A stretch of DNA of 41,573 nt from Halorubrum kocurii JCM 14978 (lineage in GTDB: Archaea; Halobacteriota; Halobacteria; Halobacteriales; Haloferacaceae): contig NZ_AOJH01000043.1 of assembly GCF_000337355.1 (NCBI RefSeq), positions 95,283 through 136,855 of the forward strand, written 5' to 3'. The first letter of the stretch is position 1. Each line of letters starts with the position of its first letter. Under the pieces are notes generated by a model. The model saw only the letters and a program-made list of their open reading frames with translations, had not been told where the DNA came from and made no database searches. Both the position numbers and the translations under genes were made by a program. Positions 1 through 32,652 of this stretch are shown in pieces.

Positions 1-434
1 ATGTCCCCCTCGCGGCGGAGCGGCGACGTGCACTGTAACAGCACGACGACGGCCGGCTCGACGCCGTCGTCTCGCACCACGCCCAGCGCGTGGAGGAGCG
101 CGTCCTCCGTCGGGGACCGGTCGCCGGCCAGGTCGTCGGGCCGGTCGATGACCGCCGCGCCGACGTCGCGGGCGACGGCCGCGATCTCCCCGTCGTCCGT
201 CGAGACGTACGTCCGGTCGACGCGCTCGCTCCGGAGCGACTGGTCGATCGTGTGCGCGATGAGCGGCGCCCCGAGGAACGGGACGACGTTCTTCCGCGGG
301 ATCCCCTTGCTTCCGCCGCGAGCGGGGATGACGGCGACGACGTCGCCGCCGCTCTCGGAACGGCGGGAGTCGGCCGGTGCGCTGTCTGTCGAGAGGCTGT
401 GCGTCCGGTCGTCGGCGGGTGTGTCGTCGGTCAT
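1..434 (-). CDS. CMP-N-acylneuraminate (nonulosonate) cytidylyltransferase, NeuA-like, 3' part missing
   Basis: Activates a sialic-acid-like nine-carbon sugar with CTP to give the CMP-sugar donor, in the cytoplasm. Seen: the nucleotide-binding signature ARGGSKGIPRKN at residues 38-49, a STDD motif near 79-82, the conserved DRPDDLAGDRSPTEDALLHAL stretch from about 97, and LLQCTSPLR at 132-140. About 30 polar, acidic residues precede the domain. The gene starts at ATG 434 and runs off the left edge after 144 codons, so the C-terminal half is not visible. Its ATG overlaps the TGA of the upstream gene (ATGA), so the two are translationally coupled. The specific sugar (Neu5Ac, legionaminic, pseudaminic or Kdn type) cannot be told. 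KdsB/CMP-Kdo synthetase is less likely because the ARGGSKGIPRKN form is typical of NeuA. Confidence 0.88.
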   Translation of the reverse strand, partial: MTDDTPADDRTHSLSTDSAPADSRRSESGGDVVAVIPARGGSKGIPRKNVVPFLGAPLIAHTIDQSLRSERVDRTYVSTDDGEIAAVARDVGAAVIDRPDDLAGDRSPTEDALLHALGVVRDDGVEPAVVVLLQCTSPLRREGD

Positions 435-1954
435 GGTGTCGGGTCGCTCTCGGCGTCGTCTCGCGGGTCGTCCGGTCGGTCCGCGGTGCGGATCCGCTCA
501 ATCGCTCGCGGCACCGCTTCTAGGGCGGTCGGCTCGAAGATCCGGTCCGTGTCGAACGGCACCGTTCCCCGCGCCGAGCGCTCGGCGTCGACGAGGTCCG
601 TCACGGACGCGACGGGCGTGGCGATGTCCTCGTCGACGAGCGCACGGAGCTTGGCCGACCCCGGCAGGTCGTAGAGGTACGTCCGGAGGCCGAATCGGAG
701 CCCCTCGTACACGGCCGTCGAGTAGACGCCGACCTGAGCCGTCGACGCCTCGAACAGCTCGTACAGCGACCGGTCCGAGCCGTCCGCGACCGCGACGTCC
801 GCGGCCGCGAGCCACGGGTACGATTCGGGGTACCGCGCGACCTCCGCGGGGTGGAGCTTGTACACGATGTCCGTCTCGAACGCGGGGTCGGCCGCGAGCG
901 ACGCGGCGAACCGCGACAGCTGCTCGCCGATCGCCCCCTGCGAGACGAACACGATCTGTTCCCGGTCGGCGGACCGCTCGTCGGTCGGCCGCTGCGACTC
1001 GATGTACGGGTACCCCACCGGGAGCACCCGCTCGTCCGGGATCGGGTACTCGACCGCGTCGCGCCAGAACCGGCCGTACACGAGGAGGTAGTCCGGGAAC
1101 ATCCGCTTCCGCCTGCCGGGGCCGGGGAACGAATACCCCACGTGGTACGGGTCTATCACGCCGTGTTGGAGCTCCGCGACGGGAACGCCCCGCCGCTTGC
1201 ACGCCTCGATCTGGATGGCCCGCTCGCGCCCGTAACTCACCGTCACCACCGCGACGTCCGGGTCCATCCGGTCGAGGAGCGCCTCGTAGCTCGGGCGGAG
1301 CCGTCGTCGGGAGGAGAGCGAGTGTCCGACCATCTCGCCGACGTCGACGTCGACGCCGAACCGCTCGCGGATCGCCGCCTCGAGCCGGTCGAGCCGCTTC
1401 TCGTCGCGCGCGTCGAACGACCAGTCGCCCGCGAACCGGCGCCGCAGGTCGGCCAGCCGCTCGACCGGGTCCAGGTACCGGAGGTCGTCCGTCCGGGCCG
1501 GCCGCCGGTGGCCGTGCTCTCGGCCGCTCTCGAGAGCCGCCACGTCGCAGCCGAGCCGCTCGATGACCGGGTCACAGCGGATGTTCCACCACAGGCCGTC
1601 TTCGAGGCGCTTCCGGCGCGGGTGCGTGAAGAACGCCACGTCGGCGGCGGGCGTGAGGTACGGATTGCGCGTCGAGACGGACCGGAGCATGTCGGCGACC
1701 GCGGCGCGCGTCGACCCGCCGTCGTCGCGCTCGTGCGCCGCGCCCAACAGCCCGGTGCCTTCGAGTATCCGCTTGTTCACGTCGAACCGGACCCGCTCCC
1801 AGACCGGAACGCCGTCGATGAGCCAGTCGAACAGGTCGAGCTCCGCCTCCAGCTCCAGGAACCGCTCGTGAACCGAGCGGAAGGTCAGCTCGGTCGCCGA
1901 CGAGGTACCGGCGGAGTCTGCGGCCGGACGGTCGGGGGCGGCGTTCCCGCTCAT
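431..1954 (-). CDS. GT-B-like glycosyltransferase, possible sialyl/nonulosonyl transferase
   Basis: A 507-residue protein with no signal peptide or clear membrane segment. The C-terminal half looks like a GT-B nucleotide-sugar transferase: ELQHGVIDPYHVGY, a YKLHP motif, and a donor-site-like stretch SLYELFEAS..QVGVYSTAVYEGLRFG resembling capsule/polysialyltransferase-type enzymes and CDP-glycerol transferases. The N-terminal half (roughly residues 20-230) I do not recognise. The start at 1954 is chosen because its ATG overlaps the TGA of the upstream GT4 gene; the frame is open 20 codons further up but inside that gene. Its stop overlaps the start of the CMP-nonulosonate synthetase. That coupling suggests it uses the CMP-sugar made by its neighbour, which is inference. 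The exact CAZy family is unknown to me. Confidence 0.6.
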   Translation of the reverse strand: MSGNAAPDRPAADSAGTSSATELTFRSVHERFLELEAELDLFDWLIDGVPVWERVRFDVNKRILEGTGLLGAAHERDDGGSTRAAVADMLRSVSTRNPYLTPAADVAFFTHPRRKRLEDGLWWNIRCDPVIERLGCDVAALESGREHGHRRPARTDDLRYLDPVERLADLRRRFAGDWSFDARDEKRLDRLEAAIRERFGVDVDVGEMVGHSLSSRRRLRPSYEALLDRMDPDVAVVTVSYGRERAIQIEACKRRGVPVAELQHGVIDPYHVGYSFPGPGRRKRMFPDYLLVYGRFWRDAVEYPIPDERVLPVGYPYIESQRPTDERSADREQIVFVSQGAIGEQLSRFAASLAADPAFETDIVYKLHPAEVARYPESYPWLAAADVAVADGSDRSLYELFEASTAQVGVYSTAVYEGLRFGLRTYLYDLPGSAKLRALVDEDIATPVASVTDLVDAERSARGTVPFDTDRIFEPTALEAVPRAIERIRTADRPDDPRDDAESDPTP

Positions 1955-3192
1955 GAGCCGGCGACCCCGAGCTCGTCGTACACGCCGCGGAGGCGTTCGG
2001 CGTCCCGGTGCCACCCGTACGTCGTCTGCACCGCCTCGCGCGCGTTCTCACCGAACCGCCGCGCGGTCTCCTCGCCTTCCAGCGCCAGCGCCGCCTGCGC
2101 GAGCGAGTCCGGGTCCTCCGGCGGAACCACCACCCCCGCCTCCGCGTCGCGGACGACGCGGGCGACGGCCGTCGTCTCCGTCGCCAACACCGGGATCGCC
2201 CCGGCCATGTACTGAAACAGCTTGTGCGGCACGGTAGTGTTCGTGTGCGGCGTCGCCCGGTGCGGGACGAGCCCCACGTCGGCGGCCGCGATGTGTCCCG
2301 GGATCGTCCGCTCGTCCACCCAGCCGGTGAACTCGATCGCGTCCGAGACGCCGAGGTCCGCCGCGAGCTCCTCGAGGCGCCCTTTCACCTTCGACCGCCC
2401 GCCGACGATCCGCAGCGTCGCGTCCGGGACCGACCGCCGGAGGACCGACAGCGCCCTGATCGCCGTGTCGACGCCGCGGTGCTCGCCCGAGAGGGTGCCG
2501 GTGTACGTGAGCACGAACCCCTCCGTCTCCGGCGGGGAGAAGCGGTCGACGCAGTCGTCGAACCACTCGACGTCCACCGTGTTCGAGACGACGGACACCC
2601 GGTCGGGGGCGGCCCCGGCCTCGAGGTACCGCTCCCGCGCCTCCGGGACGACGGCGAGCGCGTGATCGGCCGCCTGCAGCGCCTCCGCGAGCCGCTCGTC
2701 CCAGTGCCGCTTGGGTCTGAGGACGCGCCGGGCGACCTTCGTGGGAGAGGTGAGCGTCTCGACGGGCGTGTCGCGGCGGCGGTACTGGACGACCGCCTCC
2801 GGGAAGTTCTCGTGGAGGTCGACCACGACCGGGACGCCTTCGGCGACGCCGAGCGCGGTCCGCGCCAGTCGGAGGTCGTGAACGTGGAGCACGTCCGCGC
2901 CCCCCGCGATCCGGTCGCGTATCCGTCTCGCCCACCGCGGGTACGTCCCGGCCGTCACCGAGCGGTAGGTGCCGCGTAGCTCCTCCATCGGCGACCTCGC
3001 GTCCGTGTGAACGACGACGTCGGCCCCGTCGACGGTCCGGCGCGAAACCACGTCGCCGTCGCTCGGCCGGGGCTCGCCCGCCCGCTCCGTGAGGACGCGG
3101 ACGTCGTGTCCCGAGGCGAGGAGCGCCTTCGCCTCCTTTCGGACGCGGGCGTCCGGCGGGTACTCGCCTTCGAGGATCATACACACCTCCAT
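1951..3192 (-). CDS. Glycosyltransferase family 4 (GT4)
   Basis: A 413-residue GT-B glycosyltransferase that moves a sugar from a nucleotide donor to a growing glycan at the cytoplasmic membrane face. Seen: the N-terminal acceptor-domain opening MILEGEYPPDARVRKEAKAL with GHDVRVL, the central linker LTYTGTLSGEHRGVDTAIRAL, and the donor-site region HKLFQYMAGAIPVLATETTAV with a following GVVVPPEDP. Start chosen at ATG 3192 (MEVCMILEG), the usual GT4 length; ATG 3180 is an alternative because GGAGG lies 5 nt ahead of it. First gene of a three-gene operon in which each junction is a 4-base ATGA overlap. Divergent from the GT2 gene, with a 114-nt AT-containing spacer (TTATTAAC near 3229-3238). Confidence 0.9.
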   Translation of the reverse strand: MEVCMILEGEYPPDARVRKEAKALLASGHDVRVLTERAGEPRPSDGDVVSRRTVDGADVVVHTDARSPMEELRGTYRSVTAGTYPRWARRIRDRIAGGADVLHVHDLRLARTALGVAEGVPVVVDLHENFPEAVVQYRRRDTPVETLTSPTKVARRVLRPKRHWDERLAEALQAADHALAVVPEARERYLEAGAAPDRVSVVSNTVDVEWFDDCVDRFSPPETEGFVLTYTGTLSGEHRGVDTAIRALSVLRRSVPDATLRIVGGRSKVKGRLEELAADLGVSDAIEFTGWVDERTIPGHIAAADVGLVPHRATPHTNTTVPHKLFQYMAGAIPVLATETTAVARVVRDAEAGVVVPPEDPDSLAQAALALEGEETARRFGENAREAVQTTYGWHRDAERLRGVYDELGVAGS

Positions 3193-3306
3193 CGACTCGT
3201 GGTTCCGCCCCGCCCCGCTTGAGTAATCAGTTAATAACCGATTCGCGGCCGCCGACAACCACTCGCTTACAAAGATGGCTATGTCCCCAGTTACGGGAAG
3301 AACGCC

Positions 3307-4347
3307 GTGAACCGACACCACTCGCGTCAGACCGCGGCCGGCGAGCCGAGAGACCCGGCCGACGAGCTTGGGGACGCGACCGATGGGTCGGCGGCGTCGG
3401 ACGGGCGGGCCCCGACCGTCAGCGTCATCATCCCGACGTACGACCGCCCGGAGATGCTTCGCGAGGCCATCGAGAGCGTGCTCGCCCAGACGTACGCCCC
3501 GATAGAGCTCGTGGTCGTCGACGACGGCTCACCGACGTCCGCACGGCCCGTCGTCGAGTCGTTCGACGCGGACGCCGTGTTCCACCGGTTCGATCACAAC
3601 CGCGGGGCCAACGTCGCTCGCAACGAGGGGATCCGCCGGTCGAGCGGCGAGTACGTCGCGTTCCTCGACGACGACGACCGGTGGGAGCCGCAGAAGCTAG
3701 CGCGGCAGGTCGCCGCCCTCGAGGCCGACGAGGACCTCGGCGTGAGCTACACGGGACAGCGTTACTCGGGCGATCGAACCAGCGTCAAACGGGAGACCCC
3801 CTCGATAACCGGCGACGCCACCCGCGAGCTGTTCGCCGGGCAGTACGTGATCACGTTCTCCTGCCTGCTGGTCCGTCGGGCGGCCATCCACGCTGCCGGC
3901 TACCCCGACCCCGAACTGCCGATACTCCAGGACCGCGAGTGGCTGTTGCGGCTGTCACAGCACACGAAGCTCGCCGCCATCGAGGAGCCGCTCGTCTCCA
4001 GGCGAGTCGGCGGCCACGAGCAGATCAGCGACCGCTACGAGGCGCTGCGCGACGTCGCGTACCCGCGGATATACGAGCGCCACCGGCGGGCCGCGAGCGA
4101 CATCGGGCTGCGTTGCCGGCTCCAGTTCAAGGCGTCGTTGCTGGCGTGGATCGGCTCGTTCGCGCTGTACTCCGGGCGATACCGTGACGCTCGGTGGTAC
4201 CTCTTCTTGGCGTACTGCCAGTGGCCGTTCTCCCTCCGCGTGCTCCTCCGACTGATCGTGGCTCTCGGCGGGCGCAGCGCCCACGAAGCCGGGCAGTCGA
4301 TCCGGTACACGCTCAGTCGCGTCCGCTCCATCTGGACCCGAAGCTGA
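3307..4347 (+). CDS. Glycosyltransferase family 2 (GT2)
   Basis: A 346-residue inverting GT-A glycosyltransferase. Seen: VSVIIPTYDRPEM at 38-50, VVDDGS at 70-75, HNRGANVARNEGI near 98-109, and the metal-binding aspartates FLDDDDRWEP at 119-128; LQDREWLLRLS later in the domain fits the catalytic-base region. The last 100 residues (weakly hydrophobic, WIGSFALYSGRYRDARWYLFLAY) are typical of this bacterial/archaeal EpsE-like group and may sit on the membrane. The start is GTG at 3307; no in-frame ATG lies before the catalytic domain. The first 35 residues are polar and probably disordered. Acceptor and donor sugar unknown. Confidence 0.9.
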   Translation: MNRHHSRQTAAGEPRDPADELGDATDGSAASDGRAPTVSVIIPTYDRPEMLREAIESVLAQTYAPIELVVVDDGSPTSARPVVESFDADAVFHRFDHNRGANVARNEGIRRSSGEYVAFLDDDDRWEPQKLARQVAALEADEDLGVSYTGQRYSGDRTSVKRETPSITGDATRELFAGQYVITFSCLLVRRAAIHAAGYPDPELPILQDREWLLRLSQHTKLAAIEEPLVSRRVGGHEQISDRYEALRDVAYPRIYERHRRAASDIGLRCRLQFKASLLAWIGSFALYSGRYRDARWYLFLAYCQWPFSLRVLLRLIVALGGRSAHEAGQSIRYTLSRVRSIWTRS

Positions 4348-19336: not shown

Positions 19337-20626
19337 TTACACTCGCCGGACCGAGAACCCGGCGTCCCGCCACCGGTCCGGATCCAGCATGCCCGTGGCG
19401 TCAACGACGTTCGGCTCCGCCATCCGCCCCGCCAGTTCGGCGGGGTCGAGGTCGGCGAACTCGTCGTGGTCGGTGACGACGACGACCGCGTCGGCGTCCC
19501 GCGTCGCCTCGTCGAGGGACTGTAAGTCGAGCGTCGCGTCCTCGACGTGCGGGTCGTGGACGGCGACGCTCGCCGCGTCGGACACGCCGCCGTCGGTGGC
19601 GGGCGCCAACGCCTCCGGCCCGTGCTGGAGCTCCCGAGCGAGCGCGAGCCCCGGGCTCATCCGGGTGTCGTCGACGTTTCCTTTATAAGCCGCGCCGAGG
19701 ACGGCGATCCGCTTCCCGCGGAGGTCGGGCACGAGCTCGCGGAGGAGCTCGACGACGAACCCGATCATCCCGTCGTTCACCCGCCGCGCAGCCGCGATCA
19801 GGTCCAGCTCGTCGGAGCCGTCGCCGAGGAACCACGGGTCGATCGGGAGGCAGTGGCCGCCGACGCCCGGGCCGGGCCGGAGGAGGTCCACCCGCGGGTG
19901 GGCGTTCGCCATCTCGATCGACTCCCGGGAGTCGATCCCGTAGTCGTGGGCGAGCCGTGCGACCTCGTTGGCCAACCCGATGTTCACGTCTCGGAACGTG
20001 TTCTGGACGAGCTTGACGAACTCGGCGGTCGTCGGCCCGGCGGTCGTCCGGATCTCACCCTCCACGAACGACTCGTACAGCGCGACCGACGCCGCCGTGG
20101 CCTCGGGGGTCAGCCCGCCGACGATGCGGTCGTTCGCCCGCAGCTCCGCGAGGATGTCGCCGGGGAGGACCGTCTCCGGGCAGTGCGCCAGCCCGAACTC
20201 GCCGTCCGCGCTCAGCCCCGACTCTTCCAGGATCGGTCGCATCTGCGAGTGAGTCGCTCCGGGCGGCACCGTCGATTCGAGGATGACCGTGTCCCCCTCG
20301 CGGAGGACGGGGCGGACGGCCTCCGCCGCCGCCCGCACGTACGTCAGGTCCGCCCGGCGCTCGGCCTCGTCGAACGGCGTCGGGACGCAGACGAGGTGGT
20401 ACTCCGCGGGCGCCACCTCGTCGACCACCGTCAGCCCGCCGTCGTCGAGCGCGCGCTCGACGAACTCGGAGAGCCCCGGTTCCCCGAGGCCGACGTCGCC
20501 CTCGCGGAGGGCCGCGAGGAGGTCCTCGTCGACGTCGTAGCCGCGGACGTCGTGGCCCGAGTTGGCGAGCATCGCGGCCGTCGGCAGCCCGATGTACCCC
20601 AGCCCGTGGACGCAGACGGTGCTCAT
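19337..20626 (-). CDS. wecC: UDP-N-acetyl-D-mannosamine dehydrogenase (WecC type)
   Basis: Oxidises UDP-ManNAc to UDP-ManNAc-uronic acid with two NAD+. A 429-residue UDP-sugar 6-dehydrogenase: Rossmann GLGYIGLP at 8-15, LVCVPTPFD at 78-86, ESTVPPGAT at 117-125, EFVKLVQNTFRDVNIGLANE (202-221), and the catalytic Cys259 in GVGGHCLPIDPWFL; the C-terminal domain has VLGAAYKGNVDDTR. The GHCLPIDP form and the adjacent wecB favour ManNAc over glucose as substrate; an AglM-like UDP-glucose dehydrogenase is the main alternative. Last gene of the GT2-wecB-wecC operon; start overlaps the wecB stop (ATGA-type). Confidence 0.87.
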   Translation of the reverse strand: MSTVCVHGLGYIGLPTAAMLANSGHDVRGYDVDEDLLAALREGDVGLGEPGLSEFVERALDDGGLTVVDEVAPAEYHLVCVPTPFDEAERRADLTYVRAAAEAVRPVLREGDTVILESTVPPGATHSQMRPILEESGLSADGEFGLAHCPETVLPGDILAELRANDRIVGGLTPEATAASVALYESFVEGEIRTTAGPTTAEFVKLVQNTFRDVNIGLANEVARLAHDYGIDSRESIEMANAHPRVDLLRPGPGVGGHCLPIDPWFLGDGSDELDLIAAARRVNDGMIGFVVELLRELVPDLRGKRIAVLGAAYKGNVDDTRMSPGLALARELQHGPEALAPATDGGVSDAASVAVHDPHVEDATLDLQSLDEATRDADAVVVVTDHDEFADLDPAELAGRMAEPNVVDATGMLDPDRWRDAGFSVRRV

Positions 20627-21723
20627 TGCGGCACCTCCGTCGACGGGGCCTCGACCGGAAGCGCCTCCAGGATCCGCTCGGCGGCGTCGCCGTCGCCGAA
20701 CGGGTTCTCCCAGTCGCTCGCGCCGAGCATCGCCGCGACGCTCCGCTCGATCCGCCCCGGGTCACACGAGCTGAGCCGGTTCGCGCCGGCGTCGACGGTC
20801 TCGGGCCGCTCGGTGTTGTCCCGCATCGTCACGCAGGGGACGCCGAGGACGCACGCCTCCTCCTGGACCCCGCCGGAGTCGGTCAGGATGAGGTCGGCCG
20901 ACGCGGCCGCCTGCAGGAAGTCGAGGTACTCAAGCGGCTCCACCGCCCGGACGCGCGGCGGGAGGTCGATGCCGAACTCCTCGACGCGGCTCCGGGACCG
21001 GGGGTGCATCGGATACACCACGTCGGCGTCGTGGGCGTCGCCGGCCCGCTGCGCGCCCTCGAGGAGGCCGCGGAACCGCTCCTCGTCGTCGACGTTCTCC
21101 GCTCTGTGGGCCGTTAACAGGAAGAACCGGGAGTCGTCGAGGTCGAGGTCCGCGACGACCGTGCTCTTCTCGCGGGCGATGTCGAGGTTCCGTTCGACCG
21201 CGTCGACCACGGTGTTCCCCGTGACGGTGATCCGGAACGCAGAGATCCCCTCGCGGAGGAGGTAGCCCTTGCTCCGGTCGGTCGGCGGGAAGTGGTAGTC
21301 CGCGACGTGATCGGCGAGCACCCGGTTCGTCTCCTCCGGCATCTCCCGGTCGAAGCTCCGGAGCCCCGCCTCGACGTGGCCAAGCTCGGTGTCCATCTTG
21401 CTGGCGGCGAGCGCGCCGGCGAGCACGCTGTTGGTGTCCCCCTGCACCAGCACGACCTCGGGCGCGGTCTCCTCCAGGGCGCGCTCGACCCCGACGAGCA
21501 TCTCCGCGGTCTGCTCCCCGTGGGACCCGGAGCCGACGGCCAGGTCGTAGTCGGGGTCCGGCAGGTCGAGCTGGTCGAAGAACACCGAGTCGAGGCTGTC
21601 GGAGTAGTGCTGTCCGGTGTGGACGATGACGTACTCGATCCCCCGCCGCTCGCACGCCTGGATGACGGGCGCGAGCTTGATGATCTCGGGACGCGTCCCG
21701 AGGACGAAGGCGATGTCGGTCAT
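20623..21723 (-). CDS. wecB: UDP-N-acetylglucosamine 2-epimerase (non-hydrolysing, WecB type)
   Basis: Interconverts UDP-GlcNAc and UDP-ManNAc. A 366-residue GT-B-fold epimerase with the expected blocks: GTRPEIIKLAPVI at 9-21, HTGQHYSDSLDSVFF near 35-49, LVQGDTNSVLAGALAA, GHVEAGLRSFDREMPEE, LLTAHRAENVD, and LTDSGGVQEEACVLGVP near the C-terminus. The family's His, Glu and Asp catalytic positions are all present. Its ATG overlaps the stop of the upstream GT2 gene and its stop overlaps wecC, so the three genes form one tightly coupled operon supplying UDP-ManNAcA. Confidence 0.92.
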   Translation of the reverse strand: MTDIAFVLGTRPEIIKLAPVIQACERRGIEYVIVHTGQHYSDSLDSVFFDQLDLPDPDYDLAVGSGSHGEQTAEMLVGVERALEETAPEVVLVQGDTNSVLAGALAASKMDTELGHVEAGLRSFDREMPEETNRVLADHVADYHFPPTDRSKGYLLREGISAFRITVTGNTVVDAVERNLDIAREKSTVVADLDLDDSRFFLLTAHRAENVDDEERFRGLLEGAQRAGDAHDADVVYPMHPRSRSRVEEFGIDLPPRVRAVEPLEYLDFLQAAASADLILTDSGGVQEEACVLGVPCVTMRDNTERPETVDAGANRLSSCDPGRIERSVAAMLGASDWENPFGDGDAAERILEALPVEAPSTEVPQ

Positions 21724-28509: not shown

Positions 28510-29586
28510 TCAGTCCGAGTCGGCGACAACCACGCCGATGGACCAGTGGTCGTTCGTGAACAGTTCGGGATGGCTCACGTTGCCGTCGACCATGCAGAGC
28601 CAGCGCCCGTCGACGCACCACGGGTCGACGTGGTGCATCCGCCCGGAGTTCCACCCGACCCGCGCGCCGGTCCCCTCCAGGACCGGCGACTCCGTGAGTT
28701 CCTCGTCCGCGTAGGTCTCCGGCCCCAGCGCCGTGATCTCGAACGCGCGGACGGCCTCGCCGTACCGCCCTTCGCAGTCCTGGAAGAAGACGACGACGCC
28801 GTCGGACCCGACGACCGGACGCCCGCCCGGCCGGAACGCGGTGGGACGCCCCGTGACGACGGGATTCCCCTCGTGCGGTTCCCAGTCGTCGGCGACGAGC
28901 GAGTCGCTGTGGTAGACTCGGAACCCTGCCACCTCGTCGTCGCCGACGAGCAGCCACCAGCGGTCGCGCCACCGGAAGACGACCGTGTCGTCCGTGTGGT
29001 GATCCGCCGACACGAGCGTCGCCCGAGGCTCCCAGCCGCCGGGGAAGTCGGTCGCCTCGTAGAGCCGGATCGCTCGCCCGTCCGACCCGCCCTCCTCGGG
29101 CACCATGTAGCGGGTTCCCTCCCACTCGAACACGTAGGGGAACGAGAGGTGCTCGTCGGACCGGAGCACGACCCGATCGTACTCCCAGCGGAGCCCGTCG
29201 GGGCTCGTCGCGTGGGCGATCACGGCGTCCGGGTCTCGGGAGGTGTTGCACACCTCGAAAAACAGGTGCCAGCAGTCCGCTCCGGGGAAGAGAAACGGGT
29301 CGGCGACGAAGTCGACGGCGCCGAAGTCAGTCACGTCCTCCGCGACCAACACCGGGTTCTCTCCCGTTCCCGTGTACGCCGTCGGCTCGGGGAGCTCCCG
29401 CCGGCCGCCGTCCGGAACGGTGTGGTTGTCGCGAACCGGCGGGTGCACCTCGGTCCTCGCCGGTTCCGCGCCGTTCAGCGCCCGAGAGAGCAGCCTCGGA
29501 ACTCGGTGGTTGACGATCTTGCCGGCCCACCACGCGGTCCGGACGACAACCGGCCGGCGTTTGATCGCGGAGAGTATGCGAGACAT
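28510..29586 (-). CDS. GINT1-N-terminal-like five-bladed propeller protein (GH43-like)
   Basis: A 358-residue protein with the beta-propeller seen at the N-terminus of plant-type GINT1 glycosyltransferases and in bacterial glycan clusters. Seen: FVADPFLFPGADCWHLFFEV, IAHATSPDGLRWEYDRVVL, HLSFPYVFEWEGTRYMVPE, AIRLYEATDFPGGWE, DDTVVFRWRDRWWLL and VYHSDSLVADDWEPHEGNPVV: successive blades. No glycosyltransferase domain follows. A short basic/hydrophobic N-terminus (KRRPVVVRTAWWAGKIVNHRV) may hold it at the membrane. Start chosen at ATG 29586 because a TATA-like box lies 28 nt upstream; ATGs at 29592 and 29604 are in frame too. Function unproven; glycan binding or cleavage is possible. Confidence 0.75.
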   Translation of the reverse strand: MSRILSAIKRRPVVVRTAWWAGKIVNHRVPRLLSRALNGAEPARTEVHPPVRDNHTVPDGGRRELPEPTAYTGTGENPVLVAEDVTDFGAVDFVADPFLFPGADCWHLFFEVCNTSRDPDAVIAHATSPDGLRWEYDRVVLRSDEHLSFPYVFEWEGTRYMVPEEGGSDGRAIRLYEATDFPGGWEPRATLVSADHHTDDTVVFRWRDRWWLLVGDDEVAGFRVYHSDSLVADDWEPHEGNPVVTGRPTAFRPGGRPVVGSDGVVVFFQDCEGRYGEAVRAFEITALGPETYADEELTESPVLEGTGARVGWNSGRMHHVDPWCVDGRWLCMVDGNVSHPELFTNDHWSIGVVVADSD

Positions 29587-29614
29587 CGCCATACGCCAAA
29601 ACATGTCGTTGAGA

Positions 29615-31149: not shown

Positions 31150-32652
31150 ATGAAGGACCGCCTTCGAGAACTCGTCGAGCGTGCCATCCCAACGGGCTCC
31201 GTCGTCCAGCGAACCGTCAAAAGCGGGATCTGGGTGACGGCGACGAAGATGGCGATCCGACTTTCGCAGATCCTGATGCTGATCATCCTCGCGCGGCTGC
31301 TCGATCCGCGCGACTTCGGGTTGATGGGCATCGCCCTGCTCGTGCTCGCCGCAACGAAGAGTTTCACCGAAATCGGGATCAACGCCGCCCTCATTCAGGA
31401 CAAAAAGGAGAACGTCGACGAGTACCTCAACACGACGTGGTCGCTGGAGGCCGCGCGCGGCGCCCTCCTCTTCGGCGTGCTGATCGTCGCGGCGCCGTAC
31501 ATCGCCGGCGTCTTCGACGAGCCCGGCGCGACGAACCTCATCCGAGTGCTCGGCCTGAGCCCGCTGCTGTACGGGATTCGCAACCCCGGCGTGGTCTACT
31601 TCAAAAAGGAGCTCTCCTTCCACAAGCAGTTCGTCTTCGAGTCGGTCGGATCGCTCGTGCAGTTCGCGGTCGGCGTCGGCTACGCGCTGTACTCGCCGAC
31701 CGTCTGGGCGCTCGTGTTCGCGACCGTCAGCAGGTCGGCGTTCAAGTCCGTCTTCTCGTACGTCCTCCACGACTACCGGCCGCGGCCGAGCTTCGAGCTG
31801 GCTGTCGCGCGGCGCCTCATCAGCTACGGGAAGTGGATCACCGGCGCGTCGATCATCAGCTTCGTGTACGGCCAGGGGGACGACGCGTTCGTCGGGTGGT
31901 TCCTCTCCGCGACCGCCCTCGGGTTCTACCAGTACGCGTACCGGATCGGGGACATGCCCGCGTCCGAGGTCTCCGGGGTCATCTCGGAGATCACGTTCCC
32001 GGCGTACTCCAAGCTTCAGGACGACCTCGACGAACTCCGCGGGGCGCTGCTTCAGACGACCCGCCTGACCGCGTTCGTCGCGTTTCCGCTGTCGTTCGGT
32101 ATCGCCGCCGTGGCACCGAGTTTCGTTCCCGCTATCCTCGGCGACGAGTGGCGCCCGATGATCACGGCGATGCAGCTGCTCGCGATGTACGGGTTGTTGC
32201 ACGCGATCACCCGGAACTTCGGCGCCATCTGGAAGGCGCTCAACCGTCCGGACCTCGTCGTCAAGACCGGGCTGCTCCGGGTGGGGTGTATCGCCGTCCT
32301 CATCTGGCCCGCGACGGCGCGGTGGGGGATCGAGGGGACCGCGCTGGTCGTCGTCGGGGTGTACGTCTTCCCGATGCTCCCGGTGGACGTGTACCTCTCG
32401 TCGCGGATGGTCAAGGCCCGACAGAGGCAGCTGTACGCCGAGTACCTCTACCCGTTCATCGCCGCCTCGATCATGTTCCTCAGCCTGTCGTACGCGGCGT
32501 TCGTAACGGACCTGACTCCGCTCGTCGAGTTCCTCGTGCTGGTTCCGTCGGGCGCGGTAGTGTACTTCGCCGTCGCGTATCTGCTCGAACGGCAGTTCGA
32601 CTGGGGGATCGAGCGGAACCTGCGGATGATAAGCGACGGGCTCCGGGGCTGA
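31150..32652 (+). CDS. Polysaccharide flippase, Wzx/WzxC type
   Basis: A 500-residue integral membrane protein of the polysaccharide-synthase/MOP exporter group that flips lipid-linked glycans outward. Seen: KSGIWVTATKMAIRLSQILMLIILARLLDPRDFGLMGIALLVL, the classic opening, followed by about 12-14 hydrophobic segments, with FVYGQGDDAFVGWFLSATALGFYQYAYRIGDMP in the middle and PAYSKLQDD after it, both typical of WzxC-like flippases. Start ATG 31150. A TATA-like GCATAACAAT (31059-31068) lies about 80 nt upstream. It marks the right end of the glycan genes. Confidence 0.9.
   Translation: MKDRLRELVERAIPTGSVVQRTVKSGIWVTATKMAIRLSQILMLIILARLLDPRDFGLMGIALLVLAATKSFTEIGINAALIQDKKENVDEYLNTTWSLEAARGALLFGVLIVAAPYIAGVFDEPGATNLIRVLGLSPLLYGIRNPGVVYFKKELSFHKQFVFESVGSLVQFAVGVGYALYSPTVWALVFATVSRSAFKSVFSYVLHDYRPRPSFELAVARRLISYGKWITGASIISFVYGQGDDAFVGWFLSATALGFYQYAYRIGDMPASEVSGVISEITFPAYSKLQDDLDELRGALLQTTRLTAFVAFPLSFGIAAVAPSFVPAILGDEWRPMITAMQLLAMYGLLHAITRNFGAIWKALNRPDLVVKTGLLRVGCIAVLIWPATARWGIEGTALVVVGVYVFPMLPVDVYLSSRMVKARQRQLYAEYLYPFIAASIMFLSLSYAAFVTDLTPLVEFLVLVPSGAVVYFAVAYLLERQFDWGIERNLRMISDGLRG

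Follow-up and report, generated by a model that had tools for sequence, protein, structure and literature searches.

The 41,573-nucleotide stretch of Halorubrum kocurii JCM 14978 considered here (contig NZ_AOJH01000043.1, positions 95,283 to 136,855; G000:C43:95283-136855 in our numbering, hereafter the window) encodes, next to a gene for a synthetase of CMP-nonulosonic acid (neuA), a 507-residue protein of an unnamed family that we call GTX. Cytidine monophosphate (CMP)-activated nonulosonic acids (CMP-NulO) are the donors of sialic-acid-like sugars, and GTX is best read as an undescribed family of GT-B glycosyltransferases that use them. Donor, acceptor and activity are what we infer from computation: the order of the genes, the fold, a conserved signature, the co-occurrence with NulO genes and the presence of a relative in a locus of the type found in Halorubrum sp. 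PV6. We give a probability of about 0.7 to the proposal that GTX moves NulO from CMP-NulO, made by NeuB and NeuA, onto a surface-glycan precursor. The wider proposal is held with less confidence, at slightly better than even odds. It states that this undescribed family of CMP-NulO transferases extends across haloarchaea, Asgard archaea, methanogens and several bacterial phyla, includes the legionaminic acid transferase of PV6, and would be a means by which several Asgard lineages decorate their surface glycans.

The first-pass annotation of this DNA had described neuA and the 507-residue gene as overlapping by 4 bases, which is the case (bases 431-434 are common to both). It had also proposed that the protein could belong to an uncharacterised family of sialyltransferase-like enzymes. 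The CMP-binding signature, the co-occurrence with NeuB and the relative in the PV6-type locus argue for this proposal. The two observations named there as fatal to it were not made, as the genome does have a synthase gene and the modelled fold is GT-B.

A conserved CMP-binding signature

The conserved residues of GTX were obtained from an alignment (A2) of the window protein (P0001) with relatives from 79 of 80 loci, which are 26-49% identical to it; L085 was excluded for its broken open reading frame (ORF). A smaller alignment (A1) holds 22 of the 25 matches of the family sample introduced below (L018 and the G062 fragments L036 and L037 were excluded), and another (A3) holds 53 of the 80 pieces. 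Invariant across the 80 sequences of A2 are E36, W52, E142, E261, Q263, H264, W297, G314, S338, H368, G409, S412 and E417. H264, in a Gln-His-Gly stretch (Table 1), is one candidate catalytic residue.

H368 belongs to a (K/R)XHP motif. As far as the sections of the source consulted go, this motif is common to the sialyltransferase families GT29, GT38, GT42, GT52 and GT80 and to the retaining 3-deoxy-D-manno-oct-2-ulosonic acid (Kdo) transferases of GT99 and GT107; its Lys/Arg and Pro are placed at the cytosine and its His, together with a Ser pair, at the phosphate (PMC12887879). The same sections give a spacing of 44 residues between H227 and S271 in the structure of KrkA (PMC12887879), and H368 and S412 of GTX are likewise 44 residues apart. 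The strictly spaced motif was found in 60 of 81 GTX ORFs and in 7 of the 3095 remaining ORFs at these loci. By sequence, GTX carries both features expected of CMP-sugar transferases, (K/R)XHP and the Ser-Ser/Thr pair.

The bacterial sialyltransferases of GT38, GT52 and GT80 also have a D/E-D/E-G motif with a catalytic acid. This motif is not conserved in A2, where the aligned positions 118-119 are variable and position 118 is gapped in 30 of the 80 sequences. Q339 is present in 76 of the 80, and the position four residues after it (343) is Gly in 79; that this stretch corresponds to the QXXXD motif is judged from sequence order.

Co-occurrence with NulO genes in haloarchaea

GTX and NulO genes were counted in 170 genomes belonging to the same taxonomic family as the window (family sample) and in 292 Halobacteria genomes (class sample). 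The genome of the window has one NeuB gene, at C43:87526-89403, 6.3 kb to the left of GTX, which is the side on which the first-pass annotation had advised looking for a synthase. In the family sample, GTX was found in 24 genomes and NeuB in 42. NeuB was present in 23 of the 24 genomes with GTX and in 19 of the 146 without it (Fisher p 6e-16); in the lone exception (G157, 62% complete) NeuA adjoins GTX. In the class sample, NeuB was present in 30 of 30 genomes with GTX and in 26 of 262 without it (Fisher p 9e-26), or, counted by genus, in 20 of 20 and 15 of 57 (p 2e-9). The 30 include one split gene, one fragment of 39.6 bits and one distant match of 42.8 bits, and the 56 genomes with NeuB include one fragment of 23.1 bits. 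GTX lies on the contig of NeuB in 21 of the 24 family-sample genomes and within 15 kb of it in 20, with a median of 5.1 kb between the matched stretches.

The GT4-type glycosyltransferase of the same operon served as a control. It has relatives in 164 of the 170 genomes. Of its 20 strong matches listed, 2 are no more than 40 kb from NeuB, and one of these is the query itself; the cut of >130 bits was set after the list had been inspected, and the weaker matches, which were not counted, include some near NeuB.

Genomes that lack a close GTX supplied twenty stretches around NeuB. Seventeen gave no match below E 0.1, and three hold distant relatives: L138:15959-17368 (469 aa), L139:12086-13903 (605 aa) and L140:5858-7672 (604 aa). 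These come from genomes G128, G131 and G132 of the window's genus, and they have the GT-B character and the QHG, HP and S-T motifs. The L138 relative corresponds to the weak 42.8-bit match of G128, which was counted as GTX in the class sample and not in the family sample. Those of L139 and L140 stand near a 1090- or 1048-residue protein that resembles AglB by eye. In another genome, at G284:C128:40428-40767, the NeuB fragment (23.1 bits) adjoins the GTX fragment (39.6 bits); these may be the remains of a NulO locus whose two genes decayed together.

Relatives beyond haloarchaea

Genome contigs were scanned for GTX relatives; of the 255 obtained, the best 80 were kept for the locus counts and the alignment. 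The archaea among these 80 are haloarchaea, Heimdall-, Thor-, Loki- and Hodarchaeota and Methanobrevibacter. The bacteria are Bacillaceae, Clostridiales, Selenomonadales, spirochaetes, Desulfobacteraceae, other deltaproteobacteria, Planctomycetota and Moraniibacteriota. The earlier suggestion of an archaeal family was therefore too narrow, since relatives occur in several bacterial phyla.

Genes of the 80 loci were located by tblastn and profile searches, and the profiles found NeuB in 58, NeuA in 55 and either in 60. For 36 loci (35 genomes), 20 of them without a local NulO gene, NeuB was also sought elsewhere in the genome. It was present in 13 of the 20: 11 by this search, and L064 and L066 as contigs of G111 and G098, in both of which NeuB had been found in the family sample. 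Altogether, for 73 of the 80 loci there is a NeuB or NeuA close by or a NeuB at another place in the genome. When the ORFs of the 80 loci were clustered without supervision and the clusters named by eye, the commonest neighbours were NeuB (58), NeuA (53) and then a flippase-like family (29).

These counts bear on the possibility that GTX is a general gene of glycan islands with no functional tie to NulO, brought together with NeuB by the transfer of whole islands. All of these genes do sit in patchy surface-glycan islands, and seven Asgard assemblies have GTX without a detectable NeuB. Yet across several phyla no neighbours are commoner than NeuB and NeuA, 28 of the 80 loci have a NulO ORF no more than 300 bases from GTX, and the link runs one way, in that GTX predicts NeuB whereas NeuB does not predict GTX. 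We consider this possibility quite improbable. An ordinary island gene was rejected on the GT4 control, which showed no link to NeuB among its strong matches, and on the locus clustering, which was led by NeuB and NeuA. The tie between the genes and the CMP signature together offer a family-wide handle on NulO transfer in archaea, including Asgard and Methanobrevibacter, for a family that has no name in the libraries searched. If the proposed function is correct, several Asgard lineages would carry sialic-acid-like sugars on their surface glycans by means of GTX.

A PV6-type legionaminic acid locus

NulO decoration in haloarchaea had been called little described in the first-pass annotation. 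In Halorubrum sp. PV6 (GenBank MH673034 / CP030064) it has been described: the S-layer N-glycan ends in 5-N-formyl-legionaminic acid, and the activities of LegI and LegF were demonstrated (PMC6137143, here and below as far as the consulted sections report). A competition experiment linked virus attachment in PV6 to legionaminic acid, and the legionaminic acid transferase was stated to be unidentified (PMC6137143).

One of the 80 loci, L045 (G141:C1:1079000-1098900, from the window's genus), carries an uninterrupted row of ORFs with 379, 341, 240, 387, 317 and 209 residues, and in addition a NeuB of 352 residues. The six fit the reported legC, legB, legF, legG, formyltransferase and neuD genes, each being one base over the reported size; the NeuB gene has 1059 bases as compared with 1053 for legI. 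NeuB, NeuA and the epimerase of L045 are backed by profiles, and the other leg functions are assigned by size and order. The published legI forward primer and the legF forward and reverse primers have sites in L045 with zero mismatches at those gene ends where they are expected; none of the 156 other loci contains the legI site. Because the ORF sizes fit, the three primer sites are exact and the legI site is found in no other locus, L045 is judged to be PV6 or a very close relative. The legI reverse primer is printed with the same sequence as the legF reverse primer (PMC6137143) and looks like a misprint, since in L045 this sequence matches the end of legF.

The GTX relative in L045 (L045:9285-10691) has 468 residues, is 42% identical to the window protein over 458 aligned positions and lies 1361 bases from legC. 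Beyond it, past a transposase-like ORF, come a GT2-like gene, a membrane protein gene and two GT4-like genes (named by eye), which could be HrrPV6_1041 to 1038. The gene table for N-glycosylation in the PV6 report lists no glycosyltransferase between 1041 and 1058 (PMC6137143), the interval into which the PV6-type GTX should fall, just ahead of HrrPV6_1046. On our reading, the PV6-type GTX would be the legionaminic acid transferase of an archaeal N-glycan. One specific gene can thus be named as the candidate, in a locus with published primer sites. If the assignment is correct, a GTX enzyme would be a tool for virus-host studies, given the link of the PV6 sugar to virus attachment.

Sequence searches and predicted fold

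The window GTX has no meaningful match in Pfam, NCBIfam or the PDB sequences, and PDB sequence searches with P0001 and with a profile of A2 found no relative. Among the Pfam matches of its relatives, all weak, the commonest is DUF6716 (PF20471; 10/80, best 3.1e-6), followed by PF04464 (2/80, best 4.4e-6) and the polysialyltransferase profile A-2_8-polyST (1/80, 0.0046); a DUF6716-matching member scanned singly scored 15.3 bits against a cut-off of 27. Weak NCBIfam matches are to NF046086 (18/80, best 3.1e-10), TIGR04396 (5) and TIGR04441 (3, best 7.6e-8). The likeness to NF046086 is limited to the C-terminal part, and its cut-off of 200 bits was not reached by any of the 10 members, out of 80, that were scanned singly (best 33.9 bits); the window protein has no match to it. 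The PF04464 profile did not match the window GTX. The profiles that we take to represent GT52 and GT80, searched together with that of GT38, gave for the window GTX only a spurious match (0.18). Membership in GT38, GT52 or GT80 was rejected, as there is no profile match and D/E-D/E-G is not conserved; what GTX shares with the defining features of these families is the CMP signature. Among viral contigs, 31 stretches fit a pattern, and in none of them was a GTX relative confirmed; a Foldseek search of viral models returned GT-B matches of a general kind, epimerases and some polyproteins. A description of the GTX family was not found in the open-licence PMC literature.

An AlphaFold (AF2) model built from 80 sequences has a mean predicted local distance difference test (pLDDT) score of 90.5 and a predicted template modelling score (pTM) of 0.90. 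The best Foldseek match is NeuC (5xvs, 2.6e-10). VIA-align superposes the model on MurG (Z 18.4, root-mean-square deviation (rmsd) 3.6, 296 aligned), on NeuC 5xvs (Z 17.2, rmsd 4.5, 316 aligned) and on TarL, an enzyme that uses cytidine diphosphate (CDP)-ribitol (Z 16.3, rmsd 4.5, 300 aligned, from residue 22). GT-B entries match both domains at Z 16-18 over residues 103-493, and by this model the fold of GTX is GT-B, in keeping with the initial description of the protein as GT-B-like. The helical first ~100 residues are scarcely covered by the structure matches. The N-terminal half, which the first reading had been unable to match to anything, is indeed unmatched by sequence; by structure, it aligns with GT-B entries from about residue 103 onward.

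Since NeuC is the best Foldseek match, GTX might act in NulO biosynthesis instead, as a hydrolysing 2-epimerase that stands in for NeuC or as another GT-B-shaped enzyme that modifies NulO. In line with this, the single PF02350 gene of the window's genome looks WecB-type and lies away from NeuB, and 5 of the 24 genomes with GTX have no PF02350 match. Against it, GTX itself has no match to the PF02350 profile, neither in the window protein (E up to 1) nor in the 80 members (E up to 0.01), and it keeps (K/R)XHP and S-[S/T], the signature seen in CMP-sugar transferases. Moreover, GTX is not simply NeuC, because 10 of the 24 genomes with GTX have a PF02350 epimerase of their own ~10 kb or less from NeuB; the stand-in role was rejected on this ground. 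We regard a biosynthetic role as very improbable indeed.

A separate model of the C-terminal domain (pLDDT 91.1) has weak matches to GT-B donor domains in general. In Foldseek it matches KpsC (1.4e-3), TagF (3.8e-3) and a CMP-bound capsule enzyme (5.6e-3); one match reaches E 0.001, and cytidine enzymes are interleaved with enzymes that use uridine diphosphate (UDP) or thymidine diphosphate (TDP) sugars and with a few unrelated chains. VIA-align superposes it on the CMP-Kdo domain of WaaA (Z 12.4, rmsd 3.2, 144 aligned). Structures of GT38, GT52 and GT80 do not appear among the 50 VIA-align entries listed for the whole model or the 50 listed for the C-terminal domain, which is not evidence either way.

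Weighing the CMP-NulO donor

A different donor would leave GTX at work on a NulO glycan, where it would make the acceptor or a neighbouring linkage from a CDP-alditol, as TagF and TarL do, or from a UDP-sugar. The presence of TarL and TagF among the structural matches, the PF04464 similarity of the two members named above, the highest overall structural scores being those of UDP-sugar GT-B enzymes, and the many transferases found in glycan islands are all consistent with it. GTX is, however, rarely found without NulO genes (NeuB in all 30 GTX genomes of the class sample; NulO genes in 73 of the 80 loci or their genomes), whereas the GT4 of the same operon shows no link to NeuB among its strong matches. 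No CDP-alditol synthase cluster was recognised by eye among the commonest neighbours, and in PV6 the NulO is terminal, so that there is no following sugar to add. A different donor is therefore considered unlikely.

Several observations weigh against the transfer of NulO from CMP-NulO by GTX. TagF-type CDP-alditol enzymes have similar histidine motifs, so the signature may denote a cytidine nucleotide and not CMP-NulO. The best structural matches of GTX use UDP- or TDP-sugars, and the fold alone cannot settle the donor, because cytidine, UDP and TDP enzymes all match. The Fisher tests ignore shared ancestry, the two samples are not independent, as 16 of the 30 GTX genomes of the class sample are also in the family sample, and 2 of these 30 matches are weak (42.8 and 39.6 bits). 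Of the 56 NeuB genomes of the class sample, 26 have no GTX, which means that there must be further NulO transferases and that GTX is one solution among several. Seven of the 80 loci are in Asgard assemblies without a NeuB match. All seven assemblies have CTP_transf_3 above the Pfam cut-off, weakly (4.7e-9 to 2.5e-4), and these matches do not show NeuA, because the same kind occurs in genomes without NeuB. The seven assemblies may be incomplete, or GTX may have another role there. Finally, the GTX relative of L045 is on the strand opposite to legC, and PV6 has six annotated glycosyltransferases for the five sugars of its glycan (PMC6137143, in the sections consulted), so that by count the glycan needs no GTX.

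Proposed mechanism

On the preferred reading, NeuB and NeuA would make CMP-NulO, whose CMP half would bind the C-terminal domain of GTX, with K366 and P369 at the cytosine and H368 at the phosphate together with S412/T413. The N-terminal domain and the helical extension would hold the acceptor. NulO would most likely be added to the non-reducing end of a lipid-linked oligosaccharide at the cytoplasmic face. In PV6, GTX would cap the oligosaccharide before its transfer by AglB, since NulO is the last sugar there. An inverting mechanism is more likely, because a Gly stands four residues after Q339 in place of the Asp nucleophile of the retaining Kdo transferases; the base would then be among the invariant residues H264, E142 or E36. 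The CMP-NulO donor, the acceptor, the inverting chemistry and the kind of NulO made by the window's organism are thus predictions.

Comparison with known systems

The nearest functional parallel by analogy is GtfS of Tannerella forsythia. GtfS and TFUB4_00887 transfer derivatives of pseudaminic acid (Pse) and legionaminic acid to a protein O-glycan, according to the sections consulted (PMC6388019), and the role of GtfS as a NulO transferase is backed by a gene knock-out (PMC6388019, PMC6120980). What they share with GTX, whose side of the comparison is predicted, is CMP-NulO transfer in the making of protein glycans, an HP motif and a NulO locus (PMC6388019). Unlike GTX, they are reported to have a DXD motif (PMC6388019); the likeness is one of description and not of sequence.

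The bacterial sialyltransferases of GT38, GT52 and GT80 have in common with GTX the GT-B fold, the (K/R)XHP and S-[S/T] motifs and the occurrence with NulO genes. They differ in that the window GTX has no Pfam match, no conserved D/E-D/E-G and a long helical N-terminal extension. The second sialyltransferase motif of the T. forsythia enzymes is said to be D/E-D/E-G as well. The retaining CMP-Kdo/Pse transferases (GT99 WbbB, GT107 KpsC, GT140 KrkA) also share (K/R)XHP and the Ser pair, but in place of their QXXXD the conserved Gln of GTX is followed at +4 by Gly (79/80), an equivalence drawn from sequence order alone. GT118 KpsS1 is placed with these retaining enzymes on the basis of an entry in a reference list. 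TagF and TarL (PF04464) are GT-B enzymes with a cytidine nucleotide as donor, and TarL aligns with GTX; unlike them, the window GTX has no PF04464 match, and GTX genes co-occur with NulO genes. The NeuC/WecB epimerases (PF02350) share the fold (5xvs) without a sequence match to GTX. Weaker likenesses are to the DUF6716 putative glycosyltransferase, in 10 of the 80 members and not in the window protein, and to the C-terminal part of the BFO_1060 family glycosyltransferase (NF046086), in 18 of the 80 and far under the cut-off where scored.

Genomic context

GTX is the second gene of a minus-strand run of GT4, GTX, neuA and a pyruvyl-transferase-like gene (PF04230), with successive overlaps of 4, 4 and 8 bases; the last gene lies to the left of the window, and a DUF1616 gene is also among the genes farther left. 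The start of GTX was taken as the ATG at 1954, and the ORF list places it at a GTG at 2014, 20 codons earlier. The neuA fragment encodes a cytidylyltransferase (PF02348, 1e-17). Its best NCBIfam model is PseF (TIGR03584, 1.1e-26) at 93.8 bits against a cut-off of 205.7, a score that can be expected because the sequence is a fragment. A single N at C43:95282, the base directly left of the window, marks an assembly gap within neuA. The two pieces that flank it fit one gene with 8-9 codons missing, as compared with four homologues.

Table 1. Positions in the window of GTX, its conserved motifs and other features of the region. Fractions are counts in alignment A2.
Feature	Position (strand)	Description
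GTX	431..1954 (-)	507-residue GT-B protein of an unnamed family; candidate CMP-NulO transferase
GTX residues 1-103	codons 1646..1954 (-)	Disordered tip and helical N-terminal extension with invariant E36 and W52
Q263-H264-G265	codons 1160..1168 (-)	Q 80/80, H 80/80, G 78/80
K366-L367-H368-P369	codons 848..859 (-)	(K/R)XHP signature; K/R 80/80, H 80/80, P 79/80
S412-T413	codons 716..721 (-)	S-[S/T] pair, expected phosphate ligand; S 80/80, T 79/80
neuA, 5' part	1..434 (-)	CMP-NulO synthetase-like; start ATG 434; 144 codons; leaves the window at its left end
GT4-type glycosyltransferase gene	1951..3321 (-)	Overlaps the GTX start by 4 bases; true start may be further in
UDP-N-acetylglucosamine (UDP-GlcNAc) 2-epimerase	20623..21723 (-)	Only PF02350 match of the genome
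Wzx-type polysaccharide flippase	31150..32652 (+)	PF13440/PF01943; same glycan island

By its gene content the region is a surface-glycan island. The window additionally encodes a UDP-sugar dehydrogenase and a nucleotidyltransferase. The UDP-GlcNAc 2-epimerase looks WecB-type, as judged from its high score. The single STT3 oligosaccharyltransferase match of the genome sits on another contig (C102).

The NeuB of the window's genome (equivalent to L009:10227-12104) is fused to an SAF domain and a xylose-isomerase-like (AP_endonuc_2) domain, and NeuB ORFs of similar length occur in 3 of the 80 loci (L058, L062 and L074). Because no PF02350 gene adjoins NeuB in this genome, the TIM-barrel domain of the fusion may, going by its domain match, supply the missing epimerase or isomerase step of a NulO pathway yet to be defined. 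At 3.8 kb from NeuB, L009:4043-6397 (-) encodes a toroid-like protein of uncertain start with SQHop_cyclase_C and Pec_lyase matches above cut-off and a C5-epimerase match slightly below it. Its C-terminal stretch is formyltransferase-like at a sub-threshold level (PF00551, 0.0017), and by analogy with what was suggested for another PV6 gene the protein might N-formylate a sugar. The GINT1_N domain (PF24793), named after glucosamine inositolphosphorylceramide transferase 1, is present in two proteins of this one haloarchaeal island, at 28510-29604 (-) of the window and at L009:2941-4020 (-). A heparinase II/III-like protein is encoded in the same contig region, at L010:12114-14120 (+).

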